Position numbers and translations under genes: made by a program. From the NCBI RefSeq assembly GCF_001708185.1, contig NZ_MDDN01000008.1, forward strand, positions 1 through 64,000: a stretch of DNA of 64,000 nt, read 5' to 3'. The stretch comes from Lysinibacillus xylanilyticus. Its GTDB lineage: Bacteria; Bacillota; Bacilli; Bacillales_A; Planococcaceae. Shown one piece after another: positions 1 through 61,975 of the stretch. Each line of letters opens with the position of its first letter. The first letter of the stretch is position 1. The notes under the pieces are model-generated. The model was not told the DNA's origin, did not search any database, and saw only the letters and a program-made list of their open reading frames with translations.

Positions 1-44
1 GCCTCTAATTTAAATTCTTTGTCATAACTTTTTCGTTTTGTCAT
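1..44 (-). CDS. IS3-family transposase OrfA, N-terminus only (cut by window edge)
   Basis: Reading leftward from an ATG at 42-44, the frame gives MTKRKSYDKEFKLE before the window ends. This is the usual opening of IS3-family OrfA proteins, whose basic start leads into a helix-turn-helix that binds the element ends. A Shine-Dalgarno (AGGAG) lies just upstream. Only 14 residues are visible, so intactness cannot be judged. The family call comes from the opening motif alone. Confidence 0.5.
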   Translation of the reverse strand, partial: MTKRKSYDKEFKLE

Positions 45-113
45 CTTAGACACTCCTAGTAAATTGTTAAGATTATTATACTTTATAAACTCCCAATTCT
101 CTGTGTCCATTAT

Positions 114-479
114 TTAGACTAACATCAAAATATGTTGTCGAAAATAATAACGTAAAGCAATCATAATGGAGAAAGTAATTATAAAAGCGGAACTTTTCTT
201 AGCATAAATTAAACCATCATTTCGTATTTCATAATCTGACCATAAAATAAGAGGAATCGAAAAACCCACTCCTAAAAAAATTGCTATAGATAATTGAAGG
301 TATGTGACGTGCCCAGAAGCGTTCAGAAAAAGTGAAAACCCTGGTGTTAAAAATAGAAGAGGAAAAATTAATCGCCCTCCTCTGCCTTTGGTTGGTTTGT
401 ACATAGAACGGATTCTACGAACTAAAATGAGCAATCCAATAATTAGAAACATAGAAGTATCTGGTATTGCAGTTTGCAT
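114..479 (-). CDS. small membrane protein, CcdC/DUF1453-like
   Basis: 121 residues with about four hydrophobic segments and a basic loop (RRIRSMYKPTKGRGGR) after the first helix. The Arg/Gly-rich loop followed by LIFPLLFLTPG resembles the DUF1453 family that includes Bacillus CcdC, a membrane protein linked to cytochrome c biogenesis. CcdC is longer (about 160 residues), so this is a shorter relative and no cytochrome role should be assumed. It lies at the downstream end of a run of leftward single genes, with a repeat junction (557-650) just upstream. The family is probable; the function is unknown. Confidence 0.6.
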   Translation of the reverse strand: MQTAIPDTSMFLIIGLLILVRRIRSMYKPTKGRGGRLIFPLLFLTPGFSLFLNASGHVTYLQLSIAIFLGVGFSIPLILWSDYEIRNDGLIYAKKSSAFIITFSIMIALRYYFRQHILMLV

Positions 480-556
480 AAAAACCTCCCTGAATTACGT
501 TTTTTTAATATTTCTATTATTGCATAAATTTAAATAAAAACCATGTTTTTCCTTAT

Positions 557-650
557 ACAACTAAATTGCCCAGTTAGTCTAAAAAGAAAATGGCTCTACC
601 TCTTATTGAAGTAAAGCCTGCGTTAGTTTAAGTACATTTTTTCACAATCT
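557..650 (-). repeat. cassette-junction-like repeat, complete copy 1
   Basis: Read on the minus strand this has a first core (ACTTAAACTAACG then GGCTTTACTTCAA), a GAGGTAGAGCC segment with a T-run, and a second core (ACTAACTGGGC, TTTAGTTG). It lies between the 3' end of the gene at 668-1201 and the 5' side of the gene at 114-479. The same two-core layout recurs at 1802, 50418 and 61282. Confidence 0.6.
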
Positions 651-667
651 TAGTAGTCTTAATAATT

Positions 668-1201
668 CTAAGCGTATATCCCCCATTCAAACAAAAAATA
701 GTGGCTATCAGATTGTCCGAATATGCACTCATGAACATATCCTTTTTGTATTTGTATTGTTTCGATATGATTTAATCTAATTAAAAGTTCTTTAACAACT
801 GATTCGGGTACATTCACATCAGCTAAATCCCTTTTAAATTTACTTATAAAATCTCCTTTTACTGACTCTATACAAACACATTTTCTTGGATAATATTCAT
901 TAATCCAGAAATTTTTTAGTGTTAGCCATTGTTCATCTGAAGAGTCTGGTTCATCACAGGTATCCCATTCTTCTCCATCATACAATTGCTTTTTAAATAT
1001 TGCAGAAAATGCCTCTTGAATATTATCAAATTGACCTTTTCTGGTGAATAATAAGTCTACTTGCATTGCAGATTTATCTCTAAATTCATATACATCAAAT
1101 GATAGATTTGACAATTGAACATTTGCAATTTGTCTGGAAAACAAATTGAAATCACCAAACAATTCTTGAATTTCACTTCTCAAAATAAATCTTCCACCCA
1201 T
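668..1201 (-). CDS. hypothetical protein, 177 aa
   Basis: I do not recognise this protein. It is soluble, acidic and rich in aromatic residues, with no signal peptide or membrane segment and no clear catalytic motif. Cysteines occur in WDTCDEPD and RKCVCIE. It starts at an ATG after a weak AGAAAG site and encodes MGGRFILRSE. It is a monocistronic-looking leftward gene with a repeat junction on each side (557-650 downstream, 1236-1287 upstream). Codon use is AT-rich like its neighbours. Single small orphan genes of this kind are often immunity or accessory proteins, but nothing here proves that. Confidence 0.6.
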   Translation of the reverse strand: MGGRFILRSEIQELFGDFNLFSRQIANVQLSNLSFDVYEFRDKSAMQVDLLFTRKGQFDNIQEAFSAIFKKQLYDGEEWDTCDEPDSSDEQWLTLKNFWINEYYPRKCVCIESVKGDFISKFKRDLADVNVPESVVKELLIRLNHIETIQIQKGYVHECIFGQSDSHYFLFEWGIYA

Positions 1202-1235
1202 CTTTCTGAAGCCTTTATTTTTTGATTGTTGATTT

Positions 1236-1287
1236 TCAACTAACCTGCACCGTTAGCACAAGAAGCGATTGCTCTAATCGAACAATC
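1236..1287 (-). repeat. cassette-junction-like repeat, second core plus hairpin
   Basis: The minus strand reads a hairpin (GATTG...CAATC) and then GCTAACGGTGCAGGTTAGTT. This is the same second core as in the complete copies. It lies between the genes at 1320-1682 and 668-1201. Confidence 0.55.
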
Positions 1288-1319
1288 ACCTCTTAGCTTA
1301 CATGTATGTATTGACAAAA

Positions 1320-1682
1320 TTAAACACCAAAATGAATCAACCATCTATCTTCTTTTATTGCTTCAGCTATTTTTTTCATCAATTTTTCAAGTTCTTCTGA
1401 TTTGTACTCGTCGTTTGCTTCACTAACAATATTTAAAAATTGTTTATGAGAACTCGGTGGTATCAATGTTATTCCAAAATAGGCGAGGTTTTTATAAGGT
1501 CTATTTGTGTTATGTGCAAATGTATCTAGGCGATGCATTTTTTTACCAAAATCCTTAGACATAAGTTCATCAAAAAGGTCCCCATCTACACCTATGCAAT
1601 TATATTTTTCAGGTTCGTAACCAACATACTTTTTATTTTTTTCTATACATTCAACTATTCCAAACTCGTGAATATAAGCCAA
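1320..1682 (-). CDS. hypothetical protein, 120 aa
   Basis: A soluble 120-residue protein that I do not recognise. It starts at a TTG with an AGGAGATG ribosome site nine bases upstream (MAYIHEFGIV). The middle contains HNTNRPYKNLAYFGITLIPP and the C-terminus has an amphipathic Lys/Glu-rich helix (EELEKLMKKIAEAIKED) followed by RWLIHFGV. There is no signal peptide. It lies in the same leftward run of single small genes, with repeat junctions at 1236 and 1802. Function unknown. Confidence 0.6.
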   Translation of the reverse strand: MAYIHEFGIVECIEKNKKYVGYEPEKYNCIGVDGDLFDELMSKDFGKKMHRLDTFAHNTNRPYKNLAYFGITLIPPSSHKQFLNIVSEANDEYKSEELEKLMKKIAEAIKEDRWLIHFGV

Positions 1683-1801
1683 ATTAACACATCTCCTAAG
1701 TCTTCAATTTGTATCGGCTATTTTTTCATACAACTCCCTTTATGAGCCTCTACTATACAAAACGTTTCTCACATTATTTTACAACACTTTCTAGTTCATC
1801 A

Positions 1802-1905
1802 TTCAACTAACATGCTTATGTTGAACAAGAAAAAAGAGCCGTCTAAGCAACTCGACTGTCTTCAAGTAAAGCACCCCGTTACTTTAAGTATATTTTTTCA
1901 CATAC
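1802..1905 (-). repeat. cassette-junction-like repeat, complete copy 2
   Basis: The minus strand shows the first core (TACTTAAAGTAACGGGGTGC, TTTACTTGAAG), a terminator-like hairpin (GAGTTGC-TTAGAC-GGCTC followed by six T), and a second core ending GTTAGTTGAATGATG. It lies between the small membrane gene at 1933-2106 and the gene at 1320-1682. Confidence 0.65.
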
Positions 1906-1932
1906 TTAACCCATTCGCATTAAAAAGCTACT

Positions 1933-2106
1933 TCAAAATAGCCAAATCATAGAGGGTAAAACCACCAGCAAAAATAAGCCAGTGAACATATACTTTATGT
2001 ATTGTCTTCTATTTACGCCTTCTTTTAATTCCCATAGCCCTAAAGTTATAAAATATAGTCCAACCAAAACCGAGATAATCGGAATTACAATAACTAAACC
2101 AACCAT
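1933..2106 (-). CDS. small membrane protein, 57 aa
   Basis: The ATG at 2104-2106 follows an excellent ribosome site (AAGGGAGGCG). The 57-residue product begins MVGLVIVIPIISVLVGLYF and has two hydrophobic helices separated by a charged loop (ELKEGVNRRQYIKY), so it is a two-pass membrane peptide ending PSMIWLF. No family was recognised. It occupies its own unit between repeat junctions (1802-1905 downstream, 2138-2255 upstream), like its neighbours. Confidence 0.65.
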   Translation of the reverse strand: MVGLVIVIPIISVLVGLYFITLGLWELKEGVNRRQYIKYMFTGLFLLVVLPSMIWLF

Positions 2107-2137
2107 TCGGACGCCTCCCTTTAAAATCCTTCTTTTT

Positions 2138-2255
2138 GACCGTTAGTTTAAGTACATTTCTTCACAATCTTCAAATCAATTTTAACATAAATATCCATAA
2201 GAAAAATCAACTCTAAGAAAAATGAACTGCTCCGTTTAAGTACATCTTTTCAATC
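2138..2255 (-). repeat. two partial cassette-junction cores
   Basis: Two half-copies of the junction core occur here. The plus strand reads CCGTTAGTTTAAGTACATTT at 2140-2159 and TCCGTTTAAGTACATCTTTT at 2231-2250. They sit between the kinase-like gene at 2410 and the 57-residue gene at 1933. The rest of 2107-2409 is AT-rich with no gene seen. Confidence 0.5.
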
Positions 2256-2409
2256 CCTATAATAAAATTAACATAATTATCCAAATAAAATAATTCTACT
2301 TTATTATTCATTTTATTAAAAACAACACAATTCCTATTTTTCGAGCTGTACAGTTATTTATGAGATAAAAGTAAAAGCCACTCCCAAAAGTTTGGAATGG
2401 CTTATTAAT

Positions 2410-3414
2410 TTATTTCATGTTATCCTGTTGCCATGGTTTTTGAAAGCTTTGTCTTAATTCGTCTGCAACACGAACTAATTTACCCCTCAATCCAACAAAC
2501 CAAGATGGCGTTTCATTTATTTCACCATAATCCAAAGACTTTAATATTCTGGAGAACTTATATAAGTTTGCATATCTTTGAAACTGCGGAAATTGAGCCA
2601 CTACATCATTTTCTAAATCCATTTTGGAACGATATCCGTTCAAAAAAGATTGAAGCAGTAATTTTGAATGAGGATTGTCATCGTCAATAAAATCATCAAG
2701 TGCTGTTACAATATCAAGTGCATACCAGTGATATATTGCATCATCAAAGTCGATTATATTGAAACTATGATCCTTATCCTCTTCCAAAAAGATATTATCC
2801 AATTGAAAATCATAGTGTATCAATCCGAACACCTCTTTGTTAGTAGGTAACGATTGAAACCAATTCGACACCTTACTTAGCTCTTGAAGGGCTATTTGTT
2901 CTCCTGGATGCTTTTTAAATACACCTTCCATGAATTGTACTGTGTCGAGCCAACTCTTTCTTCTTTCTGACACTGGCTCAAAAGTTTTTGACAAAAAATG
3001 AAGTGAGGCAAGTGATCTTCCCCATTTCTCCATCTGTTTTGCAGTAATAGTATCGGCATCCAAATTGATTCCGTTTGCTGCACTAAAGACAACGGCAATA
3101 TACGTTCCTTCTGGTGTTTTTAGTGTTTCAATTAGTTCTCCACTTATTGATTGAATTGGTGTTACCGATGGAAATCCATTTAATCGCAAATATTGCATAA
3201 ACTCTAACTCAGCTTTTATTTGTTCAATAGATTGATCCTGCTCAAAACTAACTCTCAAAAAATATTGAACTTGATTACGTTCAAAAGCATACACAAAGTT
3301 TGAACTTGCACGCCACAACTCCAAAGTTCCCTCGTCATATTCCCAGAATTGAACGAGACTCTGAGCAACAGCATCAGAAGCTACTCCTCTTACCATGTTT
3401 CCTAAATTCATCAT
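2410..3414 (-). CDS. aminoglycoside-phosphotransferase-family kinase (APH fold)
   Basis: 334 residues, a full-length APH-type kinase. The N-lobe spans about residues 35-120. The catalytic loop reads HYDFQLDN (H200, D202, N207, the HxDxxxxN pattern) and the metal-binding motif IIDFDD follows at 221-225. The family transfers phosphate from ATP to small molecules such as aminoglycosides, choline, homoserine or sugars; the substrate cannot be read from the sequence. It has no signal peptide and is cytosolic. The ATG-ATG start follows GGGAGG at a long spacing. It lies alone between repeats and the IS1595 remnant. Resistance should not be assumed. Confidence 0.8.
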   Translation of the reverse strand: MMNLGNMVRGVASDAVAQSLVQFWEYDEGTLELWRASSNFVYAFERNQVQYFLRVSFEQDQSIEQIKAELEFMQYLRLNGFPSVTPIQSISGELIETLKTPEGTYIAVVFSAANGINLDADTITAKQMEKWGRSLASLHFLSKTFEPVSERRKSWLDTVQFMEGVFKKHPGEQIALQELSKVSNWFQSLPTNKEVFGLIHYDFQLDNIFLEEDKDHSFNIIDFDDAIYHWYALDIVTALDDFIDDDNPHSKLLLQSFLNGYRSKMDLENDVVAQFPQFQRYANLYKFSRILKSLDYGEINETPSWFVGLRGKLVRVADELRQSFQKPWQQDNMK

Positions 3415-3726
3415 CTTTTATTTTTCCTCCCATTACCTTTGAGAGGATTAAACCTTAGTTAAGAAGTAATGCCTCTCATTAGCATGCTTTTTTGAAATTC
3501 TATCATTTTCAATATGTCACCCCTTCCTTAAGTTTCGGCTATAAAAACTAAATAGCCCTATATATACTAATTATACATAAAATAACAAATACCTCTTTTG
3601 TAATTTCTGCCCTAATAGGTCAATAAGACTTACTACAATAAGAAAAGGCTGTTTTCGTATAGATTGTTGTATCTTAAAAATACTGGATATTGTTGAATAT
3701 AATGCATTTCCAGGAGGCGTTCAATA
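3415..3726. other. intergenic, possible left end of IS1595 remnant
   Basis: No gene seen. GGCTGTTTTCGTATAG near 3645 and the conserved-looking leader with GGAGG before 3727 probably belong to the left end of the IS1595-type remnant that follows. The exact terminal repeat was not established. Confidence 0.3.
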
Positions 3727-4268
3727 ATGTGGAGATATGTGTATGAAGCAGTCGGAGAATTAGGAAAAGCAGATCAACTAGCCTTATTTAAGCAATTAAA
3801 ACAATATCTATATCCAAGAGATGGAAATAAAATAGGAAAATCACTTCCTAAGATCAAGGAGTCTCGATTTTCGTCTGGTTTAGGTTGTCTTCATTGTGGA
3901 AGTACTGCCGTAAAGCGTAATGGTAAATATCGTTCTAGACAAAGATATTTATGGATTGTGGGAAAACATTCAATGATATGACAAATACGCCTTTTTCGGG
4001 TTCGCGTTATCCGGAAAAATGTCAAAATCAACGAGTAAAAAAAGGGATATTCCACATACAACACGTTAATAACTTCCACAATCGCTTAAAGGGATGACTG
4101 GTGCGTTTCCAAGATGTAGGAACTCATTATTTGGACAACTACCTCTATTGGTTCCGTTGGCTCGAATTAGGCAAGAATTTATCATTTGATAAAAGAGTAG
4201 AGCAAATGCTTATTTCAGCGTATCAAAAGTCGAACTATACAACGGTTGAGATGTTGCGAAGTACATAA
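3727..4268 (+). pseudogene. IS1595-family transposase, frameshifted and internally deleted
   Basis: The N-terminus (MWRYVYEAVGELGKADQ) and a zinc-ribbon start (CLHCGSTAVKRNGKYRSRQR) are typical of IS1595 transposases. After RYL the frame shifts. The next frame continues DCGKTFNDMTNTPFSG, which restores the second zinc knuckle, and then breaks again. The extreme C-terminus reappears as DNYLYWFRWLELGKN and ends at a TAA at 4266-4268. The whole catalytic DDE core is missing, so the element cannot move by itself. Full-length transposases of this family are about 300 residues. Confidence 0.75.
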
Positions 4269-4296
4269 AATAGACCTCAAAATAGAGGTCATTAAA

Positions 4297-4911
4297 TTAC
4301 TTTTCTACTGTGATATATTCATCATCTTTTAGTCTCGTAATTTCGCAATTTTCAAGGGTTTCAAATTCTTTGAGTCTATCTTCAATTGTCTTGCTTGTAC
4401 TATCATTGAACAAATCTTCTCTGTCGTAGTGAGGAAAAACAAGTTGGTCCGTTAATCCTAATGCTGAAAAATCTTTAGTATTTAGTGTATCCATTTGCGG
4501 AGTAAAAGAATGAACGACTTTGATGTTGGGACCAAGTAGAATAGCACCAGCACTAGCACCTACAATAACTACATTTTTTGAAACTAACTGTCTTAGAATT
4601 TTATCTGCACCACTCAGTTTAGTATGAAATAGCAAGTTAAATGGATTTCCACCGTTAATGTATATGACATCTTTCTGTGTAAGACTTTCAGGGTTATCAA
4701 ATTCCAAGTCAATGAAATCAATGTTTTGGAACCCCATCTCTCTAAAATCTTCTTTTGCTTTTTGTGCATACCTATTATTCTCCCTGTGTGGTGAAGCAGT
4801 TGTGATAATAGCGACCTTCATTTCGTTAACTTCACCATCAATGAGTATTAAAAAGTGGTTTTTAATAGCGTCAGTATAAAAACCATTAGAAGTTAATAAT
4901 AATTTCAACAT
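4297..4911 (-). CDS. peptidase S51 / class I glutamine-amidotransferase-like protein
   Basis: 204 residues. The motif VGASAGA carries the nucleophile serine of the S51 (dipeptidase E-like) family, preceded by YINGGNPFNLL and followed by a histidine in VFPHYDRED. These fit the Ser-His-Glu arrangement of S51 enzymes, which cleave Asp-Xaa dipeptides or related small amides. The protein starts MLKLLLTSNG after GAAGGAGG and is cytosolic. It stands alone. A second, more divergent S51 protein occurs at 46254-46955. Actual substrate unknown. Confidence 0.8.
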   Translation of the reverse strand: MLKLLLTSNGFYTDAIKNHFLILIDGEVNEMKVAIITTASPHRENNRYAQKAKEDFREMGFQNIDFIDLEFDNPESLTQKDVIYINGGNPFNLLFHTKLSGADKILRQLVSKNVVIVGASAGAILLGPNIKVVHSFTPQMDTLNTKDFSALGLTDQLVFPHYDREDLFNDSTSKTIEDRLKEFETLENCEITRLKDDEYITVEK

Positions 4912-5130
4912 AATCAGCCTCCTTCTATTCTCTATTTTGTTTTGTTATCCTTATTTAGAAAAAAATTAAAGGAGTCAGAACTTTTGACTCAAAAAACAAC
5001 AATCTTTGAGAAAACAGCCTAAGAAAAAGAGCTGCCGTATCATGTTTGTTCAGCAACTCTTGCACCGGTTGTTTAGAATGATAAACCCTACATTCTTTCA
5101 ATGTATATTTTATGCGTCACAACGTAGTGT

Positions 5131-5229
5131 TTGACTAACCTCCCTCCGTTAGCCATCCATGTAGCGCAAAATACAGCGCTACATCACAGAAAATGAAAGA
5201 TGATCAAGTTCTTTCATGGGAGTTGAATA
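5131..5229 (-). repeat. structured junction module, copy F
   Basis: On the plus strand this reads CTCCGTTAGCCATCCATG, then a 7-bp stem GTAGCGC/GCGCTAC (5161-5167 with 5176-5182), a spacer, a second stem TGAAAGA/TCTTTCA (5194-5200 with 5210-5216), and CATGGGAGTTGAATAG. Seven relatives occur in the window. It lies directly beyond the stop of the small leftward gene at 5252. Confidence 0.65.
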
Positions 5230-5251
5230 GGAAATTATTGTTTAGATTTAC

Positions 5252-5434
5252 TCATTCATCGTCCTTATTCCACTTATACGGAATTTCCGCCCATTTATAT
5301 AACAGAATAAACAAGAACATTATAAAACTGGACGTTATGTTTTCAATCCAATTAACCTCTTTGTTAGAAATCAACTTTAACGCGGTTAATACTACAAAAA
5401 ATATTAATGGCAATCTGATACTTTGCTTAAACAT
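5252..5434 (-). CDS. small membrane protein, 60 aa
   Basis: Two hydrophobic segments (IRLPLIFFVVLTALKL and ITSSFIMFLFILLYKWAE) give a two-pass membrane peptide of unknown function. The frame is open for 25 more codons upstream, but that part overlaps the decayed kinase fragment at 5453-5657. The ATG at 5434 (MFKQSIRLPL) is therefore preferred, although its ribosome site is weak. The stop is followed at once by a structured junction repeat. Confidence 0.45.
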   Translation of the reverse strand: MFKQSIRLPLIFFVVLTALKLISNKEVNWIENITSSFIMFLFILLYKWAEIPYKWNKDDE

Positions 5435-5452
5435 ACTATCACCGACTTTATT

Positions 5453-5657
5453 GGAGTTAGAAAAACAGGGGTACAAACGCAAAAGCGATTGAATACTAAA
5501 ATGATGCAAATTTATCTGTCATGTTACTAAGTTACATTGAAGGAACTCCTGCAGATGCGCTCATTAAGAATCTTTCCGGCAAAGAATTAAGAAAAATTCA
5601 CCAACTACACGCCCACACCCTATGAATCGGGAATCTTCACAAAGAAATTCAACTTAT
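5453..5657 (+). pseudogene. decayed partial duplicate of the adjacent APH-like kinase
   Basis: About 205 bases closely match 5941-6182 of the next gene, including the stretch encoding LSYIEGTPA and the stretch encoding GKELRKIHQL. An internal deletion of about 40 bases removes the segment encoding KNFSNMEQF, and small indels break every frame. It is a remnant of a tandem duplication or a recombination by-product, not a coding gene. Confidence 0.75.
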
Positions 5658-5752
5658 CCATTCCTTCAATTTACAATACAAGAAAATTATTGACAATTAC
5701 TTCTACGCATAGTATCATTCACCTTCTGAATTGTGAAAGCGAGGAAGTAATA

Positions 5753-6656
5753 ATGATAATTGATAATGTCATAAACAACATATCGAGTCTTAAAGGTTAT
5801 TCATTGCTTGAGAAAATTGATAAAGGATATTCACCAGATGAAAAATACATAGTAACAATTGGTCAAACCAAGTATTTTATACGCTTATCGGACATGAAAT
5901 ATCATGAAAAGAGAAAAATAGAATTCTCATTGCTTAGAGAGTTAGAAAAACAAGGTGTACAAACGCATAAAGCGATTGAATACAAAAATGATGCAAATTT
6001 AACTGTCATGTTGCTAAGTTACATTGAAGGAACTCCTGCAGGTGAGATCATAAAAAATTTTTCAAATATGGAGCAATTTACGATTGGCCTTGCAGCCGGC
6101 AAAGAATTAAGAAAAATTCACCAACTACAAGCCCCACACCCTATGAATTGGGAAGCTGAACAACGCAAAGAAATTCAACTATTATTTAAGTGAATATCAA
6201 AAGGTTCGCTTTAAAATTCCACAGGAGCAGAAAATACTCGATTATATTAATCACAATTTTCACCTGCTAAAAGATAAACCTGTAACCTTACTCCATGATG
6301 ATTTTCATCTCGGACATATCATCATATTCAATCGTGATTTCAATGGAGTAATTGATTTTAATGGATTTGATTTTGGAGATCCCTATCATGATTTTTATAA
6401 TCTTTCCTTGTTTAGCAGAAGACTTAGTATTCCTTATTGTATTGGACAAATTAATGGTTATCTCTCAACGTCACCTGATGATACTTTTTGGCGGATATTC
6501 GCCTTATATGCAGCCATGAATATATTTTCCACTATCGTGTGGACTAAACAATACGATCCTTCATCTTTTGATGATGCTTTAGAAAGAATTCATTTGATTA
6601 TCCAAGATCATGATGATTTCACTTCCGCTAAACCTTTATGGTATAAAGCTCTTTAA
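5753..6656 (+). pseudogene. APH-family phosphotransferase, split by a frameshift
   Basis: The ATG at 5753 follows GAGGAAG and opens MIIDNVINNISSLKGY. The N-lobe runs to about 6190, where the frame ends at a TGA. One frame over, the protein continues without a gap as YYLSEYQKVRFKIP, then HDDFHLGHI (catalytic loop) and VIDFNGFDFGDPY (metal-binding motif), stopping at 6654-6656. Together they make about 300 residues, a normal length for the family. The shift lies between about 6160 and 6193. It is either a real pseudogene or a single-base assembly error. Substrate unknown. Confidence 0.75.
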
Positions 6657-11440: not shown

Positions 11441-11485
11441 ACAAAAAACTTATCCAATATCGGAAAGCTCTCAAAATGTTTAAAA

Positions 11486-11642
11486 ACAAATATTTGTTGC
11501 TGTCGCTTCGCTTTCGCACAAAAAAATATCTGTTGCTGTCGCTTCGCTTTCGCACAAAAAAATATCTGTTGCTGCCGCTTCGCTTTCGCACAAAAAAACA
11601 TCTGTTGCTGCCGCTTCGCTTTCGTGCAAAAACACCTGTCGC
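11486..11642. repeat. tandem minisatellite, about four 38-base units
   Basis: Four tandem units share GCTTCGCTTTCGCACAAAAA plus ATCTGTTGCTG with a few substitutions. The same GC-rich unit appears in inverse orientation at 36538-36648 and inside 42648-42980. Frames on both strands stay open through it only because the unit lacks stops; no gene is inferred. Confidence 0.8.
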
Positions 11643-11756
11643 CCCGAGACCTTGCAGCGAAGCACAGCCGCAATGGAAATTACCCCCTCGCGTTACCGAA
11701 GAACTATACTTTAATACGACACCTTAATTTTACTGATTCCATAGTTTTTCAACACC

Positions 11757-36502: not shown

Positions 36503-36537
36503 TTTTCAACATCTCCTTAGTCTATTCAACTATGCCA

Positions 36538-36648
36538 CGGCAGCAGCATGGGGGTTTTGCGCGATAGCGAAGCGGCAGCAGCATGGGGTTTTGCGCGATA
36601 GCGAAGCGGCAGCAGCATGGGGTTTTTGCGCGATAGCGAAGCGGTAAT
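36538..36648. repeat. tandem minisatellite, three units
   Basis: Three units of about 35 bases share CGGCAGCAGCATGGGG and TTTTGCGCGATAGCGAAG. Reverse-complemented, the GCTGCCGCTTCGCTATCGC part matches the units at 11486 and 42.8 kb. It lies just upstream of the 677-residue gene. Confidence 0.8.
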
Positions 36649-37999: not shown

Positions 38000-38045
38000 T
38001 ATTAAGTTTACTAACGAGGTGCTTTAGTGTAACAAGGATTTATAA
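38000..38045 (+). repeat. junction core after the 37-aa gene
   Basis: TATTAAGTTTACTAACGAGG, TGCTTTAGTGTAACAAGG and ATTTATAA follow the stop codon directly. The same string (TAACGGGTTCTTTAGTGCAA, CAAGGATTTATAA) follows the Nudix gene at 39148-39190. Confidence 0.6.
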
Positions 38046-38700: not shown

Positions 38701-39156
38701 ATGGAATACTATAAATATTTACGACAGTATGTAGGACATAGACCTATTATTTTACCTGGTTCGGTTGTCATCATTTTAAATGAACAAAATGATGTACTAC
38801 TGCAAAAAAGGCATGATGGTTATTGGGGTTTACCAGGTGGTTTAATGGATTTAGGAGAAAGTTTTGAAGAGGTAGCAAAAAGAGAGGTTTTTGAAGAATC
38901 GGGATTAGTAGTTGAAAACTTAAAATTACTAAATGTCTTCTCTGGTTCTGAATATTACTTAAAAGTTCCAAATGGTGATGAATTATATTCGGTTACAGCA
39001 GTTTATTATACCAAAGATATAAGTGGAGAAATGAATATTGATTATAGCGAGTCAGAAAAAATGCAATATTTCTCAATTAATAATTTGCCAAATGAATTAT
39101 CCGATGAATATAGAGGGTTTATTGAGCAATACATAGATTGTGAAAAATGTACTTAA
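38701..39156 (+). CDS. Nudix hydrolase
   Basis: 151 residues with a perfect Nudix box (GGLMDLGESFEEVAKREVFE, then ESGL). The preceding strand NDVLLQKRHDGYWGLPGG is typical of the MutT-like branch that hydrolyses nucleoside triphosphates or nucleotide sugars. The ATG follows AGAGGAGAGG. The stop codon TAA (39154-39156) lies inside the junction core TGTACTTAAAGTAACGGG, so the repeat forms the end of the reading frame. Substrate unknown. Confidence 0.85.
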   Translation: MEYYKYLRQYVGHRPIILPGSVVIILNEQNDVLLQKRHDGYWGLPGGLMDLGESFEEVAKREVFEESGLVVENLKLLNVFSGSEYYLKVPNGDELYSVTAVYYTKDISGEMNIDYSESEKMQYFSINNLPNELSDEYRGFIEQYIDCEKCT

Positions 39157-39190
39157 AGTAACGGGTTCTTTAGTGCAACAAGGATTTATA
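39148..39190 (+). repeat. junction core overlapping the Nudix stop codon
   Basis: TGTACTTAAAGTAACGGG, TTCTTTAGTGCAACAAGG and ATTTATAA. It matches the first core of the complete copies (TGTACTTAAACTAACG) and the core at 38000-38045. Confidence 0.6.
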
Positions 39191-42487: not shown

Positions 42488-43014
42488 GTGTTGATTAGGA
42501 AAAAATAGGTTTTATTATTGAGCGATAAAAGAATTTTTGTTGCTATTTTGCTATTATATTCCCGTTTTTAACTGATTAAAGAGAGTTGTACTTAGCGAAA
42601 ATCAGCTTATTGTTATTAAATTCATCATCAAAAGTTGGGAATGGCATTTGTTAAAACGTTTGTCATACATATAAGTTGATTGGAGTGGAGGCTGGGCGAC
42701 TCCTTGGGGATCAGCGTCACAGATGAGACCCTGGAGCGAAGCGGATGTTTTCTGTGCGAAAGCGTAGTGCTAACGTAGCGGCAGCAACTGGGTTTTGTCT
42801 GTGCGAAAGTGCAACGACAGCAGCAACAAAAGCGGCTCATCGGACGCCCCCAGGAAGCTCTGCTCTGCGCGAAAGCGAAGCGGCAGCGGCAAATGTTTTA
42901 TCTGTGCGAAAGCGAAGCGTCAGCAACAAAGCGCCCAGCCGGAACGGAGATCAACTCCACGTTATGGTGATGAGCCTCTAATTGATAATAGGGGATAAAA
43001 ATGGTTAATCAACA
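42488..43014. repeat. left inverted flank of the siderophore permease operon
   Basis: 42488-42577 is the inverted counterpart of 46154-46243 (about 90 bases, roughly 80 percent by eye, sharing AAAAAATAGGTTT and ATTGAGCGAT). 42993-43014 is the exact inverted counterpart of 46054-46075 (22 bases). A GC-rich repeat lies between the two parts on both sides. Confidence 0.7.
42648..42980 (-). repeat. dispersed GC-rich repeat, copy 3, expanded by minisatellite units
   Basis: On the minus strand it runs CATAACGTGGAGTTGATCTC ... GGGGGCGTCCGATGAGC ... GGAGTCGCCCAGCCTCCACT, the same order as at 33388. It is interrupted by several GCTTCGCTTTCGCACAGA units of the minisatellite type. This explains the open but non-coding frames here. 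Confidence 0.75.
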
Positions 43015-48350: not shown

Positions 48351-48402
48351 GAAAATGGCTCTACCTCTTATTGAAGTAAAGCCTCCGATAGTTGAACAAG
48401 AA
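48351..48402 (-). repeat. junction repeat, first core
   Basis: The minus strand reads TTCAACTATCGGAGGCTTTA, CTTCAATAAGAGGTAGAGCC, nearly identical to part of copy 1 at 557-650. It follows the stop of the gene at 48412. Confidence 0.6.
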
Positions 48403-48411
48403 CTTTAGTTT

Positions 48412-48968
48412 CTAAATAAAGCGATATTTACGTGAAAATTGCGTGATAACCAAAATAAGCGTTAACCCAACAACGAGATACCACATTATATAAAAAGGAA
48501 CTATGTACATTAATACACCAAATAATATAGCTGTTAAAGTGCTAACTGTAATTGAATGTACACTCGTAAGTTTATCTTGAATAAAATAATATAAAGTGAA
48601 TGGTAGTGCTAAAGTAGATATTGGAATATAAATTGTTACAATAGATGTTTTAATGAGGGCTATTGAAAGCACGACTTTTATGAAACCTATTGACGTAGTA
48701 AGCGTTCTTCCTACAAATACTTTACCAGTAAAGCCGTATAGCAGAATAAACATAAGCGTTAAACTGGAGCAAATCCCCGTTATTAAAACAAATGAATGAC
48801 CTATGAAGAAAGCTGCTATTGAGAAACAAACTAAAGAAACGAATGGCAACAGCAATATTGAAGGACAGCACCCGCAATTAACATAAATCCTCCGCCTCGA
48901 TATCCTTTAATAAAATCATAGCGGTCTTGATTAATCTCAACATTTTTAGGTACAAAAGGTATCCTCAC
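48412..48968 (-). pseudogene. membrane protein with a one-base frameshift
   Basis: A GTG at 48968 follows GAGGAGGG and opens MRIPFVPKNVEINQDRYDFI, then GYRGGGFMLIAGAVLQY. At about 48856 the frame must shift by one base to continue as LLLPFVSLVCFSIAAFF and four more helices to the stop at 48412. Neither part alone makes a sensible protein start. The combined product would be about 185 residues with five membrane helices. The shift is either a real mutation or an assembly error. No family recognised. Confidence 0.6.
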
Positions 48969-49038
48969 AGTTTCCCTCCTCAATTAGACTTCCACACCAT
49001 TAAATGGCTCGATTGTTGAAGACATGTTAAACAACACT

Positions 49039-49070
49039 ATTCAACTAAACTTCACCATTAGTTCAATAAG
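49039..49070 (-). repeat. junction repeat, second core overlapping a stop codon
   Basis: The minus strand reads TTATTGAACTAATGGTGAAG, TTTAGTTGAATAG. The TGA inside ATTGAAC is the stop codon of the small gene at 49063-49218. Confidence 0.6.
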
Positions 49071-49218
49071 AAATAAAATAAATAACCACAAATATTAGAA
49101 AAACATATAATGGTTCTCTTCTAAATTTATCCTTTTTCTGAACAAAACGCCGGGTCAGGCCTCGTTTATCAAAAGAGTTCTCACTGATAAATATTGATTT
49201 AACCTTCTTTTGTAACAT
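49063..49218 (-). CDS. small C-terminally membrane-anchored protein, 51 aa
   Basis: ATG at 49218 with a weak site (AAGAGCG). The product starts MLQKKVKSIFISENSFDKRG, has a strongly basic middle (RRFVQKKDKFRREP) and ends in one hydrophobic helix (LYVFLIFVVIYFISY). The stop TGA lies within the junction core. No family recognised. The small size leaves doubt, but the layout repeats that of other genes here. Confidence 0.45.
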   Translation of the reverse strand: MLQKKVKSIFISENSFDKRGLTRRFVQKKDKFRREPLYVFLIFVVIYFISY

Positions 49219-49277
49219 GGTATTTACGCTCTTTTAGTTTAGCGTAACGATTCATCTTCTACACTATCTATGGCTCT

Positions 49278-50018
49278 TTAACCTGCATCAGACCTTAATC
49301 TACTAAAGTCCAAATTTTTCAGTCGTTCTGTTTCAATAAATATCATTAATTTATCGCCGTCATGCCAACACCACTCAAGACTATCATCCGAATCAACCGT
49401 TAACAGTGAGATCCATTCTGCTTCAGGCGTTGGATCATACGCTAGTGAATAATGAGAAGGATAGCCTAGAAGATAGTCCGAACTTTTATGTAGAGAATCC
49501 CGGATTTCTGTGTATATGTCGCTCTGAACTTCATCGAAAGACCAGTCCTTTAACTGGTATTCGTCATAAGGAATATCAATAGTCGGGAAAAACTCAATCA
49601 CTGTAGTCTTGCCAATATCTGAATGGGGCGGCATTATCGTCTCTAGATTCGTCGTTTCAGGAATATAGATACCATGAATATATCCGTCCTCAAACACCTC
49701 TAGATATTCATCATCATCATAATTATCATCTGCTACAAAGAGACTTAGGAGCCCTTTCGATGGCAAACCTCTTTCAGGTGATGCGATTTCTGTGAAATTG
49801 ATCTGGCCAATGAAGCGATACAGCTTCTTCTCATACGTTGGCCATTCGCTACCAATTGGTAAATCAGGTGCTCCTCCAAAACGACTACAGCCTAATCGTG
49901 GTTCGGCATTTTTATTCTTAAGAATATCAATTGCTGGCCTCACCACTTGAGATAAATACTCTTTATGATTTGCAATATTTGATTGTTCAATTATCTCTAA
50001 AAAATTATTCCTATTCAT
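49278..50018 (-). CDS. YwqG-like DUF1963 protein
   Basis: 246 residues from the ATG at 50018 (MNRNNFLEIIEQS) with ATGGAGG upstream. DUF1963 pattern: SRFGGAPDLPIGSEWP, YRFIGQINFTEIAS, GLLSLFVADDNYDDDEY, LLGYPSHYS, LLTVDSDDSLEWCWHDGDKLMIFIE. The family includes B. subtilis YwqG; some members sit in toxin-immunity loci, others are scattered. It is soluble and cytosolic. It stands singly with a decayed acetyltransferase upstream. Function unknown. Confidence 0.85.
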   Translation of the reverse strand: MNRNNFLEIIEQSNIANHKEYLSQVVRPAIDILKNKNAEPRLGCSRFGGAPDLPIGSEWPTYEKKLYRFIGQINFTEIASPERGLPSKGLLSLFVADDNYDDDEYLEVFEDGYIHGIYIPETTNLETIMPPHSDIGKTTVIEFFPTIDIPYDEYQLKDWSFDEVQSDIYTEIRDSLHKSSDYLLGYPSHYSLAYDPTPEAEWISLLTVDSDDSLEWCWHDGDKLMIFIETERLKNLDFSRLRSDAG

Positions 50019-50145
50019 TCCATCCTCCATCGTGTGTTTTTTTAAGCGAGATTTGAATTTTCCCTATATTTAAATTATACTTCATCGTGGTTGCGAGATA
50101 AATAATTATCCTAATAATGGAAAAAATATATTTCTTTGTTTATTG

Positions 50146-50387
50146 TTAATACCATTTTTCAACTGATTCAGGATGAACGATTATATCTTCCACATAACCA
50201 TGTACTAAGCCCATTCCACACACATAACCAAAAGTAATCAATTTTTTACTTTCATTTCTGTTACCCCAGCCCAGAAATTACAACGCTTAAATAATGTCGG
50301 GTAATCTTTTTCTCTTCTATCCCATCCAACAAGTTCTCTTAGTTTGGGTACTTCATTGTTAGAAATCGGAATATTCACCCAATCTAT
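50146..50387 (-). pseudogene. decayed GNAT acetyltransferase
   Basis: On the minus strand IDWVNIPISNNEVPKLRELV, GWDRREKDYPTLFKRCNFW is followed by a frameshift and then KLITFGYVCGMGLVHGYVED, IIVHPES, the acetyl-CoA-binding region of a GNAT enzyme, before a premature stop. The C-terminal third and a start codon are missing. Intact relatives are about 140 residues. Confidence 0.7.
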
Positions 50388-50417
50388 GGATAGTTTTTAT
50401 ATGGTGAAGCCTTCCCC

Positions 50418-50528
50418 TTGTTCAACTCTTCTGCTTACGTTAGTTCAATAAAGAAAAAGAGAATTGCCTATGCAACTCAATGGTCTTAAATTAAAGCCTA
50501 CGCTAGTTTAAGTGAATACTTCACAATT
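50418..50528 (-). repeat. cassette-junction-like repeat, complete copy 3
   Basis: On the minus strand: first core CACTTAAACTAGCGTAGGC, then a hairpin-like GAGTTGCATAGGCAATTCTC with TTTTTC, and a second core TTGAACTAACGTAAGC ending GAGTTGAACAAGG. It lies between the DUF3291 gene and the acetyltransferase remnant. Confidence 0.65.
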
Positions 50529-50548
50529 CCCTCCAGAGCGGGCCCATG

Positions 50549-51013
50549 CTACTTAATCAAGAACCTCTCCCCTTGTTCATCAAATGATTGTTTAAAATCA
50601 AACGCAAAAGGAGTTGGACCATGCAGAATATAATAGTTGTATCTCTTAAATGCCTCCTCCCATGTGACATCCTTCACCTTTTCTGTCCACCAAACTACAT
50701 AAGAAAGATGTTTCTCTGGATATGGCTCAATCCATTTGCTTCTATCTCGTAATGCTTGTATATGCTTTCCTGAATAGGTAAAGCGATATAAGGATTGAAG
50801 ACTTCTCCATACCGTTAGCGTAAGAATAGGAGAACCCGTTCCCTTTACGGTTTCTTCAGGAAAAGGGACTCCTTCAGGTGAAAATATCTCTATAAGTCCT
50901 GACTTAGTTGCCTGACGATATACTTCATTTCCCACTTGATAAAATTCACGAGAGGCAGGGTGGTCATAGGGATGGTTTAGCCTACCCACTGTATAGATTG
51001 AAACTAATGCCAT
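50549..51013 (-). CDS. DUF3291-like protein, 154 aa
   Basis: The ATG at 51013 follows GATGGAGGGC (MALVSIYTVGRLNHPYDHPA). The DUF3291 pattern is visible: LTVWRSLQSLYRFTYSGKHIQALRDRSKWIEP, then YVVWWTEKVKDVTWEEAFKRYNYYILHGPTPFAFDF. These are ferredoxin-like-fold proteins related to monooxygenase-type small enzymes; activity is unknown. It lies between repeat junctions at 50418 and 51074, in a unit of its own. Confidence 0.8.
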   Translation of the reverse strand: MALVSIYTVGRLNHPYDHPASREFYQVGNEVYRQATKSGLIEIFSPEGVPFPEETVKGTGSPILTLTVWRSLQSLYRFTYSGKHIQALRDRSKWIEPYPEKHLSYVVWWTEKVKDVTWEEAFKRYNYYILHGPTPFAFDFKQSFDEQGERFLIK

Positions 51014-51073
51014 AAATAGCCCTCCATCGATAGTCTTTTTATAGATATATTTCAAGTAAAAATGTGAAAATTC

Positions 51074-51102
51074 CTTCTTCAACTAAACTACACCGTGTAA
51101 TT
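51074..51102 (-). repeat. junction repeat, second core
   Basis: The minus strand reads TTACACGGTGTAGTTTAGTT, GAAGAAGG, directly between the stop of the gene at 51110 and the start region of the DUF3291 gene. Confidence 0.55.
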
Positions 51103-51109
51103 GTAAATC

Positions 51110-51466
51110 TTAAATAAATTGTACTAACTCTGGATTTAATACAACTTTATGAAACCTCCAACAATCAGAGTATTCTGTACCAATTTCGTGATCATGCAAG
51201 CAAACCCTGTTCATTCCATCGCAACCGTCAAGACCACAACAACCATTTAATCTACTGCTATCTGAATGACGATTTGAATTGATTAAATCTTTAACGTTTA
51301 TAATGATAGATCCTTCTAATAGTTCGTAAGCTGTTTCTTTTTGAATTAAATAATAGCCTCTAGGAATATAATCATGACCATCCTTTTTATTAATCAAATT
51401 CAAGTCTTTTAATTCGGATAATGGTTCAGAAATTTCTAAATTACATGCTTTACAAATCAATTTCAA
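51110..51466 (-). CDS. cysteine-rich hypothetical protein, 118 aa
   Basis: The TTG at 51466 is chosen because AAAGGAGG lies upstream, inside the longer open frame. It starts MKLICKACNLEISEPLSEL, so the first two cysteines form CKAC. Near the C-terminus are RLNGCCGLDGCDGMNRVCLH, DHEIGTEYSDCW. The cysteine and histidine pattern suggests a metal-binding (zinc) fold. I do not recognise the family. It is soluble and forms a single unit between junction repeats at 51074 and 51519. Confidence 0.6.
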   Translation of the reverse strand: MKLICKACNLEISEPLSELKDLNLINKKDGHDYIPRGYYLIQKETAYELLEGSIIINVKDLINSNRHSDSSRLNGCCGLDGCDGMNRVCLHDHEIGTEYSDCWRFHKVVLNPELVQFI

Positions 51467-51518
51467 CTTGTCGTTTCCTCCTTTTATATGTATATGTGTT
51501 CCAGTCAATGTAAAAATC

Positions 51519-51590
51519 GGTTACCCATTAGCTATCATGTAGCGCAAAAACCAGCGCTACATCACAGTTCTTTCATGGGAGTTGAACAAG
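51519..51590 (-). repeat. structured junction module, copy L
   Basis: The plus strand reads ATTAGCTATCATGTAGCGC, then GCGCTACATCACAG and TTCTTTCATGGGAGTTGAA. The stem GTAGCGC/GCGCTAC is intact, while the left arm of the TGAAAGA stem is deleted. Confidence 0.65.
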
Positions 51591-51596
51591 GTCGCA

Positions 51597-52166
51597 TTAT
51601 GTTTGAACTGGAGCAGCACTCCAATTAATCATATTTACACCTTTAATATTAATGTTTCCTAAACTCAAAATATGAGGAATATGTGCAAACATTCCGAAGT
51701 TTACACCCTTTTTATGTTCTTCTGTGAAGTAGGCTAATGTGTCTGATGGTAAAGCTGAACATTCTGGATATGAAATGATATCAATGATTTGAATTTCTTC
51801 ATCAGGTATATCCGAAGCAGGACCTATATAATTCTCTTTATTATAGAAATACACAGCATTTTTATTTTTCATTAATCTTTCCGTCGGTATTTCATAAAAC
51901 ATCAAATCTTTTTTAATACTTATTCCAAGAGAATGTAATGCTTCGTAAACATAGTAAGGATGAAGAGGTAGTAAAAAAATCACATCATTCCATAAACAAT
52001 TTAATTTGGGGATTCTTTTCAATAATAAGCTCGGCCTTTCTGGATGGTCAGAATACTTTTTTGAGTAAGTTTTATAAAGTTCCGGATGTATCAATTTTAT
52101 CTCGTTAAGGGAAATAAGAACCTCCCCCGTCATTTTTTTAGGTATCATATGATAAACGTAATCCAT
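51597..52166 (-). CDS. hypothetical protein, 189 aa
   Basis: The preferred start is the ATG at 52166 (MDYVYHMIPKKMTGEVLISL), with GGGAGG 12 bases upstream. An earlier in-frame ATG lies too close to that site. The conserved-looking core LNEIKLIHPELYKTYSKKYSDHPERP, then PKLNCLWNDVIFLLPLHPYYVYEAL, resembles an uncharacterised Bacillus family with the same opening and NCLWNDV block. No catalytic motif and no signal peptide. A structured repeat follows its stop. Confidence 0.65.
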   Translation of the reverse strand: MDYVYHMIPKKMTGEVLISLNEIKLIHPELYKTYSKKYSDHPERPSLLLKRIPKLNCLWNDVIFLLPLHPYYVYEALHSLGISIKKDLMFYEIPTERLMKNKNAVYFYNKENYIGPASDIPDEEIQIIDIISYPECSALPSDTLAYFTEEHKKGVNFGMFAHIPHILSLGNINIKGVNMINWSAAPVQT

Positions 52167-52210
52167 CAAAACGCACATCCTCCCAAACAATTAAATTTGG
52201 TACATCCCTT

Positions 52211-52291
52211 TTATGAAAGGAAATAAAGTTTGTTGTAAAATACAAATGCTCCAGCTATAACCACGAATCCAATTGTTATAACTATCCTCAT
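52211..52291 (-). CDS. possible membrane peptide, 26 aa
   Basis: ATG at 52291 with GGTGAC upstream; MRIVITIGFVVIAGAFVFYN is one hydrophobic helix with basic and polar ends. It is very short and may be chance, although its ribosome site spacing is acceptable. It lies upstream of and in the same direction as the 189-residue gene. Confidence 0.35.
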   Translation of the reverse strand: MRIVITIGFVVIAGAFVFYNKLYFLS

Positions 52292-52686
52292 AAGTCACCA
52301 ACTTTTTATTAGTTATATATCTATATTCAATTGAACAATGTAATTCCCTTTTAAAAATCCTTTCCTAGGCAGTGTTGGATAACACTTTATTAAAGTATAT
52401 GTCTCTATAACGAAATAGACGCTTTCCTTCTTAAAGAAAAGCGCCCGAATGCGGAATAGTGGAAAATGCGAAAGAGCTACAAAATGTCATTTCTAAATTT
52501 TCCCTAATATATCCCATCCTTGATTATAGGAACATCTTTTTTAGTCTAAAATTCCTTTAAGAAATAAAACATTTTTTCAATTCACTGTGTTTACAACACC
52601 CGATACTATTAAAAGCATCAGTAAATCGATAAAAAGGCAAGACAATTACCTGTTAAAGGATAGCTAAAATAGCTTTTGCCCGTTAT
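52292..52686. other. intergenic region downstream of serS
   Basis: No gene seen. AAAGAAAAGCGCCCGAATGC at 52433-52452 and a possible hairpin near 52627-52680 (AGGCAAGACAATTACCTG / GATAGCTAAAATAGC) may take part in serS termination; neither is convincing. Confidence 0.35.
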
Positions 52687-53985
<1,299 letters not shown>

Positions 53986-54068
53986 TTAATGACATTGCAT
54001 CCATTAAGTCTTGGTTTAATTGCGTTGCAAGCTAAACTCGAATAGCTCCGCTTTGAATCAAAATAAAC

Positions 54069-54301: not shown

Positions 54302-54378
54302 TCAGTTATTTAAATTTTAACCATACTGTACTATATGAAAACAGATTTCGCAAGCAATACCATAGGATACAAAATATT

Positions 54379-54530: not shown

Positions 54531-54552
54531 GGTCTGAATAAAACGGTTGAAT

Positions 54553-54654: not shown

Positions 54655-54733
54655 ATCCATTCATTAAGATGGTATAATCATCCACAACTTATTTTGATTC
54701 ACCTATATAAAACTTCCTTAAATCAGTTGTATA

Positions 54734-55030: not shown

Positions 55031-55046
55031 TCTTAAATTAGAAAAT

Positions 55047-56983: not shown

Positions 56984-57111
56984 GTGACATGTGCAAAATA
57001 GCTGTTTATCTGAAATTTTTTCAGATAAATGGCTATTCGTTGTGCGTACCGAAAAGGTGCGCTTTTTTATATTTCGGGCTTACTTTCTATATACCTTTTT
57101 CCTTCCGAATA

Positions 57112-57232
57112 TTGAATTAAACTGCTCCGTTAGCCGTCCATGAAATGCAAAAATCAGCACTTCACCACAGAAAATGAAAGATGATTCCGTTCTTTCATGT
57201 GAGTTCAATAAAGAAAAAAGAGCTGCCTATCC
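57112..57232 (-). repeat. structured junction module, copy N, interrupted by an IS3 element
   Basis: The plus strand reads CTGCTCCGTTAGCCGTCCAT, GAAATGC/GCACTTC stem, TGAAAGA/TCTTTCA stem, then GAGTTCAATAAAG and GAGCTGCCTAT. The IS3 remnant begins right after CTAT, so the terminator hairpin of the repeat is broken. Confidence 0.65.
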
Positions 57233-60557: not shown

Positions 60558-60730
60558 TATACCACCTTCTTTTCGATTTAGAATAATATATCTTATTCGA
60601 AGAAGAAATTTAGATTTAGTCAAATACATTAATTTTACTAAAGTTTTATTTGGATAATATCTTTGTGTATAGCATTCTACAAAAATCTCCCCATGGCGAG
60701 GTGTATGTCTAGATGTTGATATTGAGTATA

Positions 60731-60970
60731 TCTAAAAATCCAGCAGCTAAAATAAAGGAACCGAAAGCCGAAATTGAACATTTAAGAGAGGCATGTCATA
60801 CTCCCCTAGAAAAAGCGATATTTGAGTTTATGTTTTCAATAGGATGTAGAATTGGAGGTTAGAACGCTCAGCAATCGTTAGAGGTAAAAGAGATAAAGAA
60901 AAGAGAGATTTATTATAATGTCCGCTGTGATATTTGGTTTAAACGATTTCATCCTGTGTCAAAACAATGA
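60731..60970 (+). pseudogene. tyrosine recombinase (phage-type integrase) remnant
   Basis: The frame reads KNPAAKIKEPKAEIEHLREA, CHTPLEKAIFEFMFSIGCRI, GG-stop-NAQQSLEVKEIKKREIY, YNVRCDIWFKRF. The FMFSIGCRIG segment is the first catalytic arginine region of tyrosine recombinases, and KREIYYNVRCDIWFK matches the loop that follows box I. An in-frame TAG and missing ends show it is dead. It lies within the array of junction repeats. Confidence 0.7.
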
Positions 60971-61848: not shown

Positions 61849-61875
61849 GCACAACTAAACTGCACCGTTAGTAAA
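61849..61875 (-). repeat. junction repeat, second core
   Basis: The minus strand reads TTACTAACGGTGCAGTTTAG, TTGTGC, the consensus second core. It lies in the gap between the small membrane gene at 61381 and the rightward gene at 61976. Confidence 0.55.
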
Positions 61876-61975
61876 AAAGCATCTTCACTTGTTGTAAGTT
61901 AAAGTGGAAAGTTTCACAAAAGATAGGAAATAGTTTATACTGGACTAACTATCATATTTAAAAGGAGCATTTCCT

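Follow-up and report, generated by a model that had tools for sequence, protein, structure and literature searches.

Integrons, and the attC clusters without an integrase known as CALINs, consist of single-gene units, each with a bipartite site and all in one orientation; their cargo includes GNAT-type proteins, arrays without a recombinase occur, and in integrons the recombinase gene lies antisense to the cassettes, next to the insertion site. According to a passage of PMC9024848, integrons are extremely rare in Firmicutes for reasons that are unclear, a single complete example coming from Limnochorda pilosa, and the authors of IntegronFinder note there a few CALIN in Firmicutes. The two boxes of the attC site follow, in the consensus quoted from a section of PMC3053210, the patterns RYYYAAC and GTTRRRY. 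Two further points of reference are the p-dif modules of Acinetobacter, small modules in which XerC/XerD sites are reported to flank single genes, and the Xer/dif, XerA and XerH systems.

The window, a stretch of 64,000 nucleotides at the start of the 149-kb contig C47 in the 4.76-Mb, 48-contig genome of Lysinibacillus xylanilyticus, contains repeats that, judging from sequence comparison, appear to be the recombination sites of a system of mobile gene cassettes found widely in Bacillales. This system shares with integrons and CALINs the features of content and layout listed above, the antisense recombinase being found in the clade of the host and the insertion site next to it being a putative one. 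Unlike integrons, it employs an Xer-type recombinase that scores below the integron-integrase cut-off, carries behind each gene a terminator enclosed by two complete palindromic cores, places the recombinase gene inside a site, and shows exchange within a spacer, not at GTTRRRY. Small modules and Xer-type bounds are shared with the p-dif modules, but the arrays here differ in encoding a dedicated recombinase and in their unidirectional cores, with two spacer types and a terminator in between. The array recombinase belongs to the same protein family as Xer/dif, XerA and XerH; unlike Xer/dif with its single dif site, it is accompanied by many sites per genome, beside accessory genes, and it resides on plasmids and moves between genera. 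Its phage-borne relatives, unlike the Bacillales loci, are without surrounding arrays. Thus, the system works like an integron but is not classed as one, since it failed the integron tests on the integrase model and on the attC boxes. We found no description of such a cassette system in the open-licence PMC literature, preprints excluded, although it might be described elsewhere. Taken as a whole, the findings are best explained if the window contains part of a dispersed mobile cassette array worked by a dedicated Xer-like recombinase, a reading that we hold with high confidence.

Cassette layout of the window and the host genome

Four minus-strand ORFs with three repeats between them (Table 1) occupy one end of the window at the positions given in the original prediction, which had seen in them an integron-like series of single genes, each followed by a two-core repeat. 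The ORF closest to the contig end is not established as a cassette. The two-core structure was recovered in full in the repeat at 557-650, and each of the other two repeats keeps one good core: in the repeat at 1802-1905, a good type 1 core is followed by a degenerate second core, and in the repeat at 1236-1287, a hairpin and a strong type 2 core are present but the first core is not recognizable. Some of the same-strand cores in the 48384-63956 stretch of the window are weak, at 9-12 bits. A search of positions 1-6000 of the window against Rfam yielded four matches, each far under the gathering score.

Table 1. Genes, cores and other features of the window, in order of position
Feature	Coordinates	Strand	Remarks
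ORF (DUF1453/CcdC)	114..479	-	near contig end
Type 2 core, position 570	548..594	-	24.3 bits; in repeat 557-650
Type 1 core, position 619	597..642	-	16.7 bits; in repeat 557-650
Unit A gene	668..1201	-	177 aa; no Pfam / NCBIfam family
Type 2 core, position 1249	1233..1267	-	30.9 bits; in repeat 1236-1287; unit A starts within its spacer
Unit B gene	1320..1682	-	120 aa; no Pfam / NCBIfam family
Terminator-like hairpin and degenerate second core	1801..1858	-	read in sequence
Type 1 core, position 1875	1859..1897	-	22.0 bits; in repeat 1802-1905; end of unit C
Unit C gene	1933..2106	-	57 aa; no Pfam / NCBIfam family
Weak type 1-like core, position 2139	2140..2162	-	10.0 bits; unit C 5' end
Type 1 core, position 38018	38008..38038	+	12.8 bits; opposite strand to window array
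Type 1 core, position 39165	39145..39185	+	19.7 bits; opposite strand to window array
Type 1 core, position 48384	48362..48406	-	24.6 bits
Type 2 core, position 49054	49038..49074	-	21.5 bits
Further cores	50436, 51092, 63956	-	
Type 2 core, position 57126	57110..57133	-	15.3 bits
Decayed array-recombinase copy (stop, gaps)	60728..60949	+	tblastn E 3e-23, 50% over 96 columns
Type 2 core, position 61864	61852..61881	-	22.6 bits

The repeats are dispersed over the rest of the genome as well. A blastn search of the same genome with the repeat gave 41 matches, the weaker of which are near chance (E up to 10), and same-strand clusters occur, among other places, on contig C7 at 52-71 kb and on contig C1 at 341 kb and 924 kb. 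The C1 924-kb cluster carries an ORF for a 281-aa tyrosine recombinase (C1:921479-922324) with a core at either side; this is the intact copy of the host, located on C1 and not on C47, where the window copy is decayed. The search for the cores in the host genome and in relatives that had been proposed with the original prediction was productive: at 14 bits or more, the core profile detected 40 sites in 854 kb of the host genome and 647 sites in 1.34 Mb around recombinase relatives, against 0 in each case in the shuffle, a single dinucleotide shuffle of all sequence searched. Because the profile was trained on the same sequences, the shuffle serves as a control and not as an independent test. 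The type-specific profiles gave at most one shuffled match at 8 bits.

Two site types and the array recombinase

The sites belong to two types, with a single orientation per array: type 1, AACTAACGGGTGCTTTAGTT, written out as TTcTTaTTcAACTAACGGGTGCTTTA[gc]TT (131 distinct sequences), and type 2, AACTAACGnnGCAGTTTAGTTGAA, written out as TTcTTaTTgAACTAACGnnGCAGtTTAGTTgAAtAAgaa (181 distinct sequences). Each core consists of inverted arms, TTCTTATTGAACTAA and TTTAGTTGAATAAGAA, around a short asymmetric spacer of about 7 bases, and inverted symmetry holds for 14 of the 16 arm positions in the type 2 consensus and for 12 of the 16 in that of type 1. Among the 647 sites, 574 are antisense to the recombinase and 73 are sense, the latter mostly in a clade with the opposite layout.

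The order along an array is gene, type 1 core, terminator hairpin, type 2 core, gene. When successive pairs of sites on one strand are considered, 226 of the 335 steps from type 1 to type 2 fall within 90 bp (5-95% range, 46-62 bp) and 36 span 850-1150 bp, which is the size of a recombinase insert, whereas only 4 of the 345 steps from type 2 to type 1 are within 90 bp, with a median of 630 bp. Same-type successive neighbors are common (193 and 104 pairs), so that the grammar is often incomplete; we read these as putative cases of a missed or lost partner core. The short segments between type 1 and type 2 cores fold into hairpins with a mean of -8.4 kcal/mol, more stable than the -4.0 kcal/mol in mononucleotide shuffles (227 segments), and contain a T-tract in 167 of the 227. 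Of the 270 gene units, 225 have one main ORF, 28 have two and 17 have none, the main ORF running with the sites in 223 units and against them in 32; single-gene cassettes with sites in one orientation are what is expected of an integron. Protein families were sought in 131 of 227 non-redundant ORFs, taken from the first 150 listed and mostly excluding those that run against the sites. GNAT acetyltransferases are the commonest Pfam match (11 of the 131 products), followed by APH-type phosphotransferases, SUKH immunity proteins, glyoxalases and NUDIX proteins, with 3 each. A reading of the arrays as defense islands was dropped, given that PADLOC matches were few, with at most 2 of the 131 members per family shown.

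The protein encoded in the arrays is a tyrosine recombinase of the Xer-like kind (Phage_integrase, PF00589, E 4.6e-40). Its conserved R, K, H, R, H and Y, to which we presume the catalytic roles belong, are invariant across 31 aligned copies, except for one arginine that is kept in at least 90%. The XerA model NF040815, the title of which reads 'site-specific tyrosine recombinase/integron integrase', is barely passed (221.6 bits against a cut-off of 220), and the integron-integrase model TIGR02249 is matched in two stretches with 90 bits against a cut-off of 265, a cut-off exceeded in 0 of the 261 genomes of the order. The nearest solved structures are the XerC-like 4a8e, XerD (1a0p) and XerA (5hxy); in the fold search, carried out with a model of modest confidence (mean pLDDT 74.5, pTM 0.50), XerA and XerD came ahead of IntI4. 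The attC boxes are mostly absent from the sites, RYYYAAC fitting 33 of the 131 left arms of type 1 and GTTRRRY 49 of the 181 right arms of type 2. The outer arms pair in 80 of 227 top-strand and 54 of 227 bottom-strand minimum-energy folds, and the composite sites folded as single strands show no clear attC-like strand preference, both results standing without a known attC as a yardstick.

From the best 80 of 95 matches, a scan across named genomes recovered 78 recombinase loci in Lysinibacillus, Psychrobacillus, Sporosarcina, Paenisporosarcina, Solibacillus, Viridibacillus, Peribacillus, Neobacillus, Bacillus and similar genera; the scan relied on close-range peptide patterns, by which distant relatives would be missed. 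In the clade of the host, the recombinase is antisense to the cassettes, a type 2 core precedes its start by about 80 bp, and its terminator is directly followed, in most copies, by a type 1 core; beyond these flanking cores, the sequence varies between copies. The 80 bp that separate the start codon from the type 2 core are conserved in 13 aligned copies. In a second clade, about 60-66% identical and represented in Peribacillus, Cytobacillus, Robertmurraya and others, the recombinase runs with the cassettes and again has, in most copies, a type 1 core on one side and a type 2 core on the other. In the clade of the host, at least one core flanks the recombinase in 20 of 21 loci viewed by eye, the exception being L110. 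Overall, 8 of the 78 loci are without a site at 14 bits, and three of these, the second-clade loci L137, L139 and L140, likewise viewed by eye, have no core at all. The recombinase reading frame is open in 39 of 48 loci and interrupted by stops or frameshifts in 9, and some genomes contain several copies, many of them decayed. A promoter scan beside the recombinase performed no better than on shuffles.

The recombinase and the sites occur together. At E 1e-60, the recombinase is matched in 72 of the 261 genomes of the order, one of these matches being only 40% identical, and the strict type 1 pattern is present in 109 of the 261, with up to 185 copies in one genome and only 3 in that of the host; a reversed-pattern control gave 0-1 matches per strand. 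In genomes with at least 10 strict type 1 sites, a recombinase match was found in 30 of 38, compared to 42 of the 223 others (Fisher p 8e-13, from hand counts on two lists and with kinship ignored). Leaving out the 40%-identical match changes this to 29 of 38 (p 7e-12, kinship again ignored), and 8 of the 38 site-rich genomes are without a strong recombinase match.

The system also spreads horizontally. The recombinase found in 13 genomes from other genera is 92-95% identical to that of the host, while a protein of these genomes that we take to be of the XerD type on account of its neighbor gene is 64-72% identical to its counterpart in the host. Plasmid records yielded 23 matches at E 1e-40, seven of them at least 60% identical; plasmid pSP10-266k of Sporosarcina psychrophila encodes a 95% identical recombinase flanked by cores, as well as a mercury-resistance gene unit between type 2 and type 1 cores, and a 64.5% match occurs in a record named Arthrobacter citreus, by its name outside Bacillales. 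Among 11 relatives on viral contigs, 10 are 48-56% identical and one, L231, 69%; no arrays surround them and only L231 has a clear adjoining core, with a CTAACG-containing motif seen by eye upstream of L229 and L233. The relatives in phage records are only 29-37% identical.

Exchange of gene units at the cores

Two of the three units of the window have copies with core-bounded breaks. Unit A (605-1249) has a 96% identical copy on contig C12 of the same genome that extends from the type 2 core spacer to the type 1 core, with both flanks unrelated. Homologues of its gene are present in five other Lysinibacillus genomes (66-70% identical as protein), and in the two of these that were inspected, there is no core within 60 bases of the homologue on either side. 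The copy of unit C (1864-2145) in the C7 array is 94% identical, and similarity breaks at the type 1 core on the 3' side and at the left edge of a degenerate core on the 5' side. Unit B (1236-1710) is matched in two other Lysinibacillus genomes at 94% and 92%, and in both of them another gene comes after the type 2 core; on the 5' side of the unit, similarity does not break at a core, and in one relative it resumes farther upstream at 83%. The original prediction had named the precise gain or loss of single core-bounded units as the mark of mobility; this is what units A and C and other loci display, and unit B displays it at one end only.

Among the loci compared, identity reaches 75% or more in 23 pairs of whole gene units, of which we set aside seven (five overlaps or same records, one palindromic self-match and one repeat of a counted pair). 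In 13 of the 16 retained pairs, which include unit A, both neighboring segments are at background identity (0.75 or less); examples of such units amid unrelated neighbors are those shared by Psychrobacillus and Viridibacillus (97.8% over 1404 bp) and by Psychrobacillus and Cytobacillus (85.8% over 344 bp). Identity was profiled around the core ends in 15 pairs; anchors were lacking in 2 of them for type 2 and in 6 for type 1, which left 13 and 9 pairs. Around type 2, mean identity rises from 0.36 well before the core, on the hairpin side, to 0.82 just after it, and around type 1, it drops from 0.82 immediately ahead of the core to 0.41 and then 0.31 beyond. The two variable spacer bases of type 2 follow the hairpin side in most pairs, as assessed by eye, which places the exchange near nn|GCAG. 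In addition, 13 of 234 HSPs between loci have all four ends at cores, compared to 0.0 under random placement.

Arrays also differ by whole cassettes. Psychrobacillus antarcticus and P. faecigallinarum are distinguished by one 472-bp cassette, unpolarized as gain or loss, that lies at the type 2 core next to the recombinase and consists of a 112-aa ORF with its type 1 core, hairpin and type 2 core. Two more pairs differ at this position by 2.1-2.5 kb, that is, several cassettes, and a fourth difference, of 1.6 kb, is at a type 2 core elsewhere, so that three of the four differences at cores, none of them polarized, are beside the recombinase. The search had returned 83 candidates; besides these 4, there are 79 at 12 junctions away from cores, and the 12 entries inspected, like the bulk of the 79, are internal deletions in the decayed recombinase copies L155 and L160.

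Proposed mechanism, alternatives and significance

These observations suggest the following scheme. A cassette usually comprises one gene and a bipartite site in which a terminator hairpin separates a type 1 core from a type 2 core, both resembling the sites of tyrosine recombinases, and the Xer-like enzyme, whose gene is flanked by one core of each type, would exchange strands inside the spacers, probably between cores of like type. Our assignment of the exchange to this enzyme is an inference, and the same applies to the pairing of the cores, to the use of double- or single-stranded substrate and to putative circular intermediates. In the clade of the host, the type 2 core some 80 bp ahead of the recombinase start would be the point of cassette entry or exit and would thus act like attI. 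The direction of the changes, gain or loss, and the mode of cassette expression would likewise be matters of interpretation; a terminator behind each gene suggests insulated cassettes with promoters of their own.

An alternative emphasis is that the recombinase unit is a selfish element with cores as its ends, cassette shuffling being a by-product and not capture. We consider this unlikely: the recombinase unit is indeed precisely bounded in many contexts, with several, often decayed, copies per genome, but gene units without a recombinase are also shared with breaks at cores, and arrays reach dozens of units. The choice between this view and a capture system is a matter of emphasis. Far less probable is a passive, terminator-linked or MITE-like repeat family that prefers gene ends, with units shuffled by homologous recombination. 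The clustering of copies at gene ends, their terminator hairpins and the decay of some cores would all fit this possibility, which had accompanied the original prediction and is not supported, given that exchange takes place in or beside a spacer of about 7 bases while the flanking hairpins are unrelated, that units are common to different genera, and that a dedicated recombinase lies between cores in two clades. It is slightly more improbable still that the XerC/XerD pair of the host, rather than the array recombinase, acts on the cores, as the site-rich genomes that have no strong recombinase match might suggest; the near-symmetric arms, above all at type 2, point to one enzyme on both arms, and the dedicated recombinase co-occurs with the sites. 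To our knowledge, the cores are also dissimilar to the B. subtilis dif sequence, which we count against the host pair. The least credible alternative is a true integron, with an IntI-type integrase acting on folded single-stranded attC sites, because the antisense recombinase, the putative insertion site 5' of it and the one bipartite site per single-gene cassette are outweighed by the integrase scores, the scarcity of attC boxes and exchange inside the spacer, with outer-arm pairing in a minority of folds as a more tentative point. Accordingly, the integron-like layout of the original prediction is upheld as a cassette organization, through core-bounded unit exchange and the dedicated recombinase in many arrays, but not as an integron in the strict sense.

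Returning to the mobile cassette array with its own Xer-like recombinase, we think it likely, if with less confidence than for the window itself, that Bacillales possess a cassette-capture system of their own, which would have evolved from an Xer-like or phage-like recombinase independently of integrons, with paired loxP-like cores and a built-in terminator, a recombinase gene inside a cassette site, and travel on plasmids and between genera, and which would have the shuffling role that integrons play in Proteobacteria. Such a system is directly testable, involving one small protein and two short DNA sites, and would give precise bounds for many unstudied single-gene units, including those for GNAT, phosphotransferase-fold, SUKH and NUDIX proteins, among others. 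A parallel cassette system that attains 185 strict type 1 sites in a genome would partly fill the integron gap in Firmicutes and would offer a second, independent case of how cassette systems arise.

Repeated and multi-gene segments of cassette arrays

The cassette array on C7, another contig of the same Lysinibacillus genome, holds, judged by eye, one gene in two copies, which differ in the sequence before the core. The array of the Sporosarcina psychrophila plasmid pSP10-266k includes a multi-gene unit containing merR, merA and a NUDIX gene, which is bounded by a type 2 core and a type 1 core and adjoined by an IS110-family transposase gene.

Recombinase relatives on viral contigs

Relatives of the array-encoded Xer-like recombinase, 48-56% identical, are present on viral contigs L223-L230, L232 and L233, with no cassette arrays around them; in several of these contigs, the next gene downstream looks, by eye, like what we take to be a phage structural gene.

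Repeats in the window, one apparently within core sites

Separately, the window contains GCAGCRGC/CTTCGCTTTCGC-rich tandem repeats, in both orientations, and an APH-like gene (PF01636) stretch in two diverged copies spaced about 490-520 bp.

Repeats and array segments
Feature	Location	Strand
CCCATGAAAG...TTCATGGATGG repeat (~70-90 bp), copy 1	window 5150-5237	minus
Same, copy 2	window 57131-57218	minus
Same, copy 3	window 62506-62594	minus
Same, copy 4	window 63829-63916	minus
Short tandem repeats (~34-36 bp)	window 11448-11663	
Same	window 36515-36644	
Same	window 42792-42929	
APH-like stretch	window 5482-6183	
Repeated C7 gene	L026:2940-4660	
merR/merA/NUDIX unit	L234:4147-6847	

The CCCATGAAAG...TTCATGGATGG repeat, with 48 matches in the fetched loci, seems to lie within core sites: there, a CTAAC-like motif follows it in 45 of the 47 matches that extend to its 3' end, TTNAACT precedes it in 22 of the 32 with a located start, and 15 matches have both. 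It may represent a small mobile element with the cores as its target sites.
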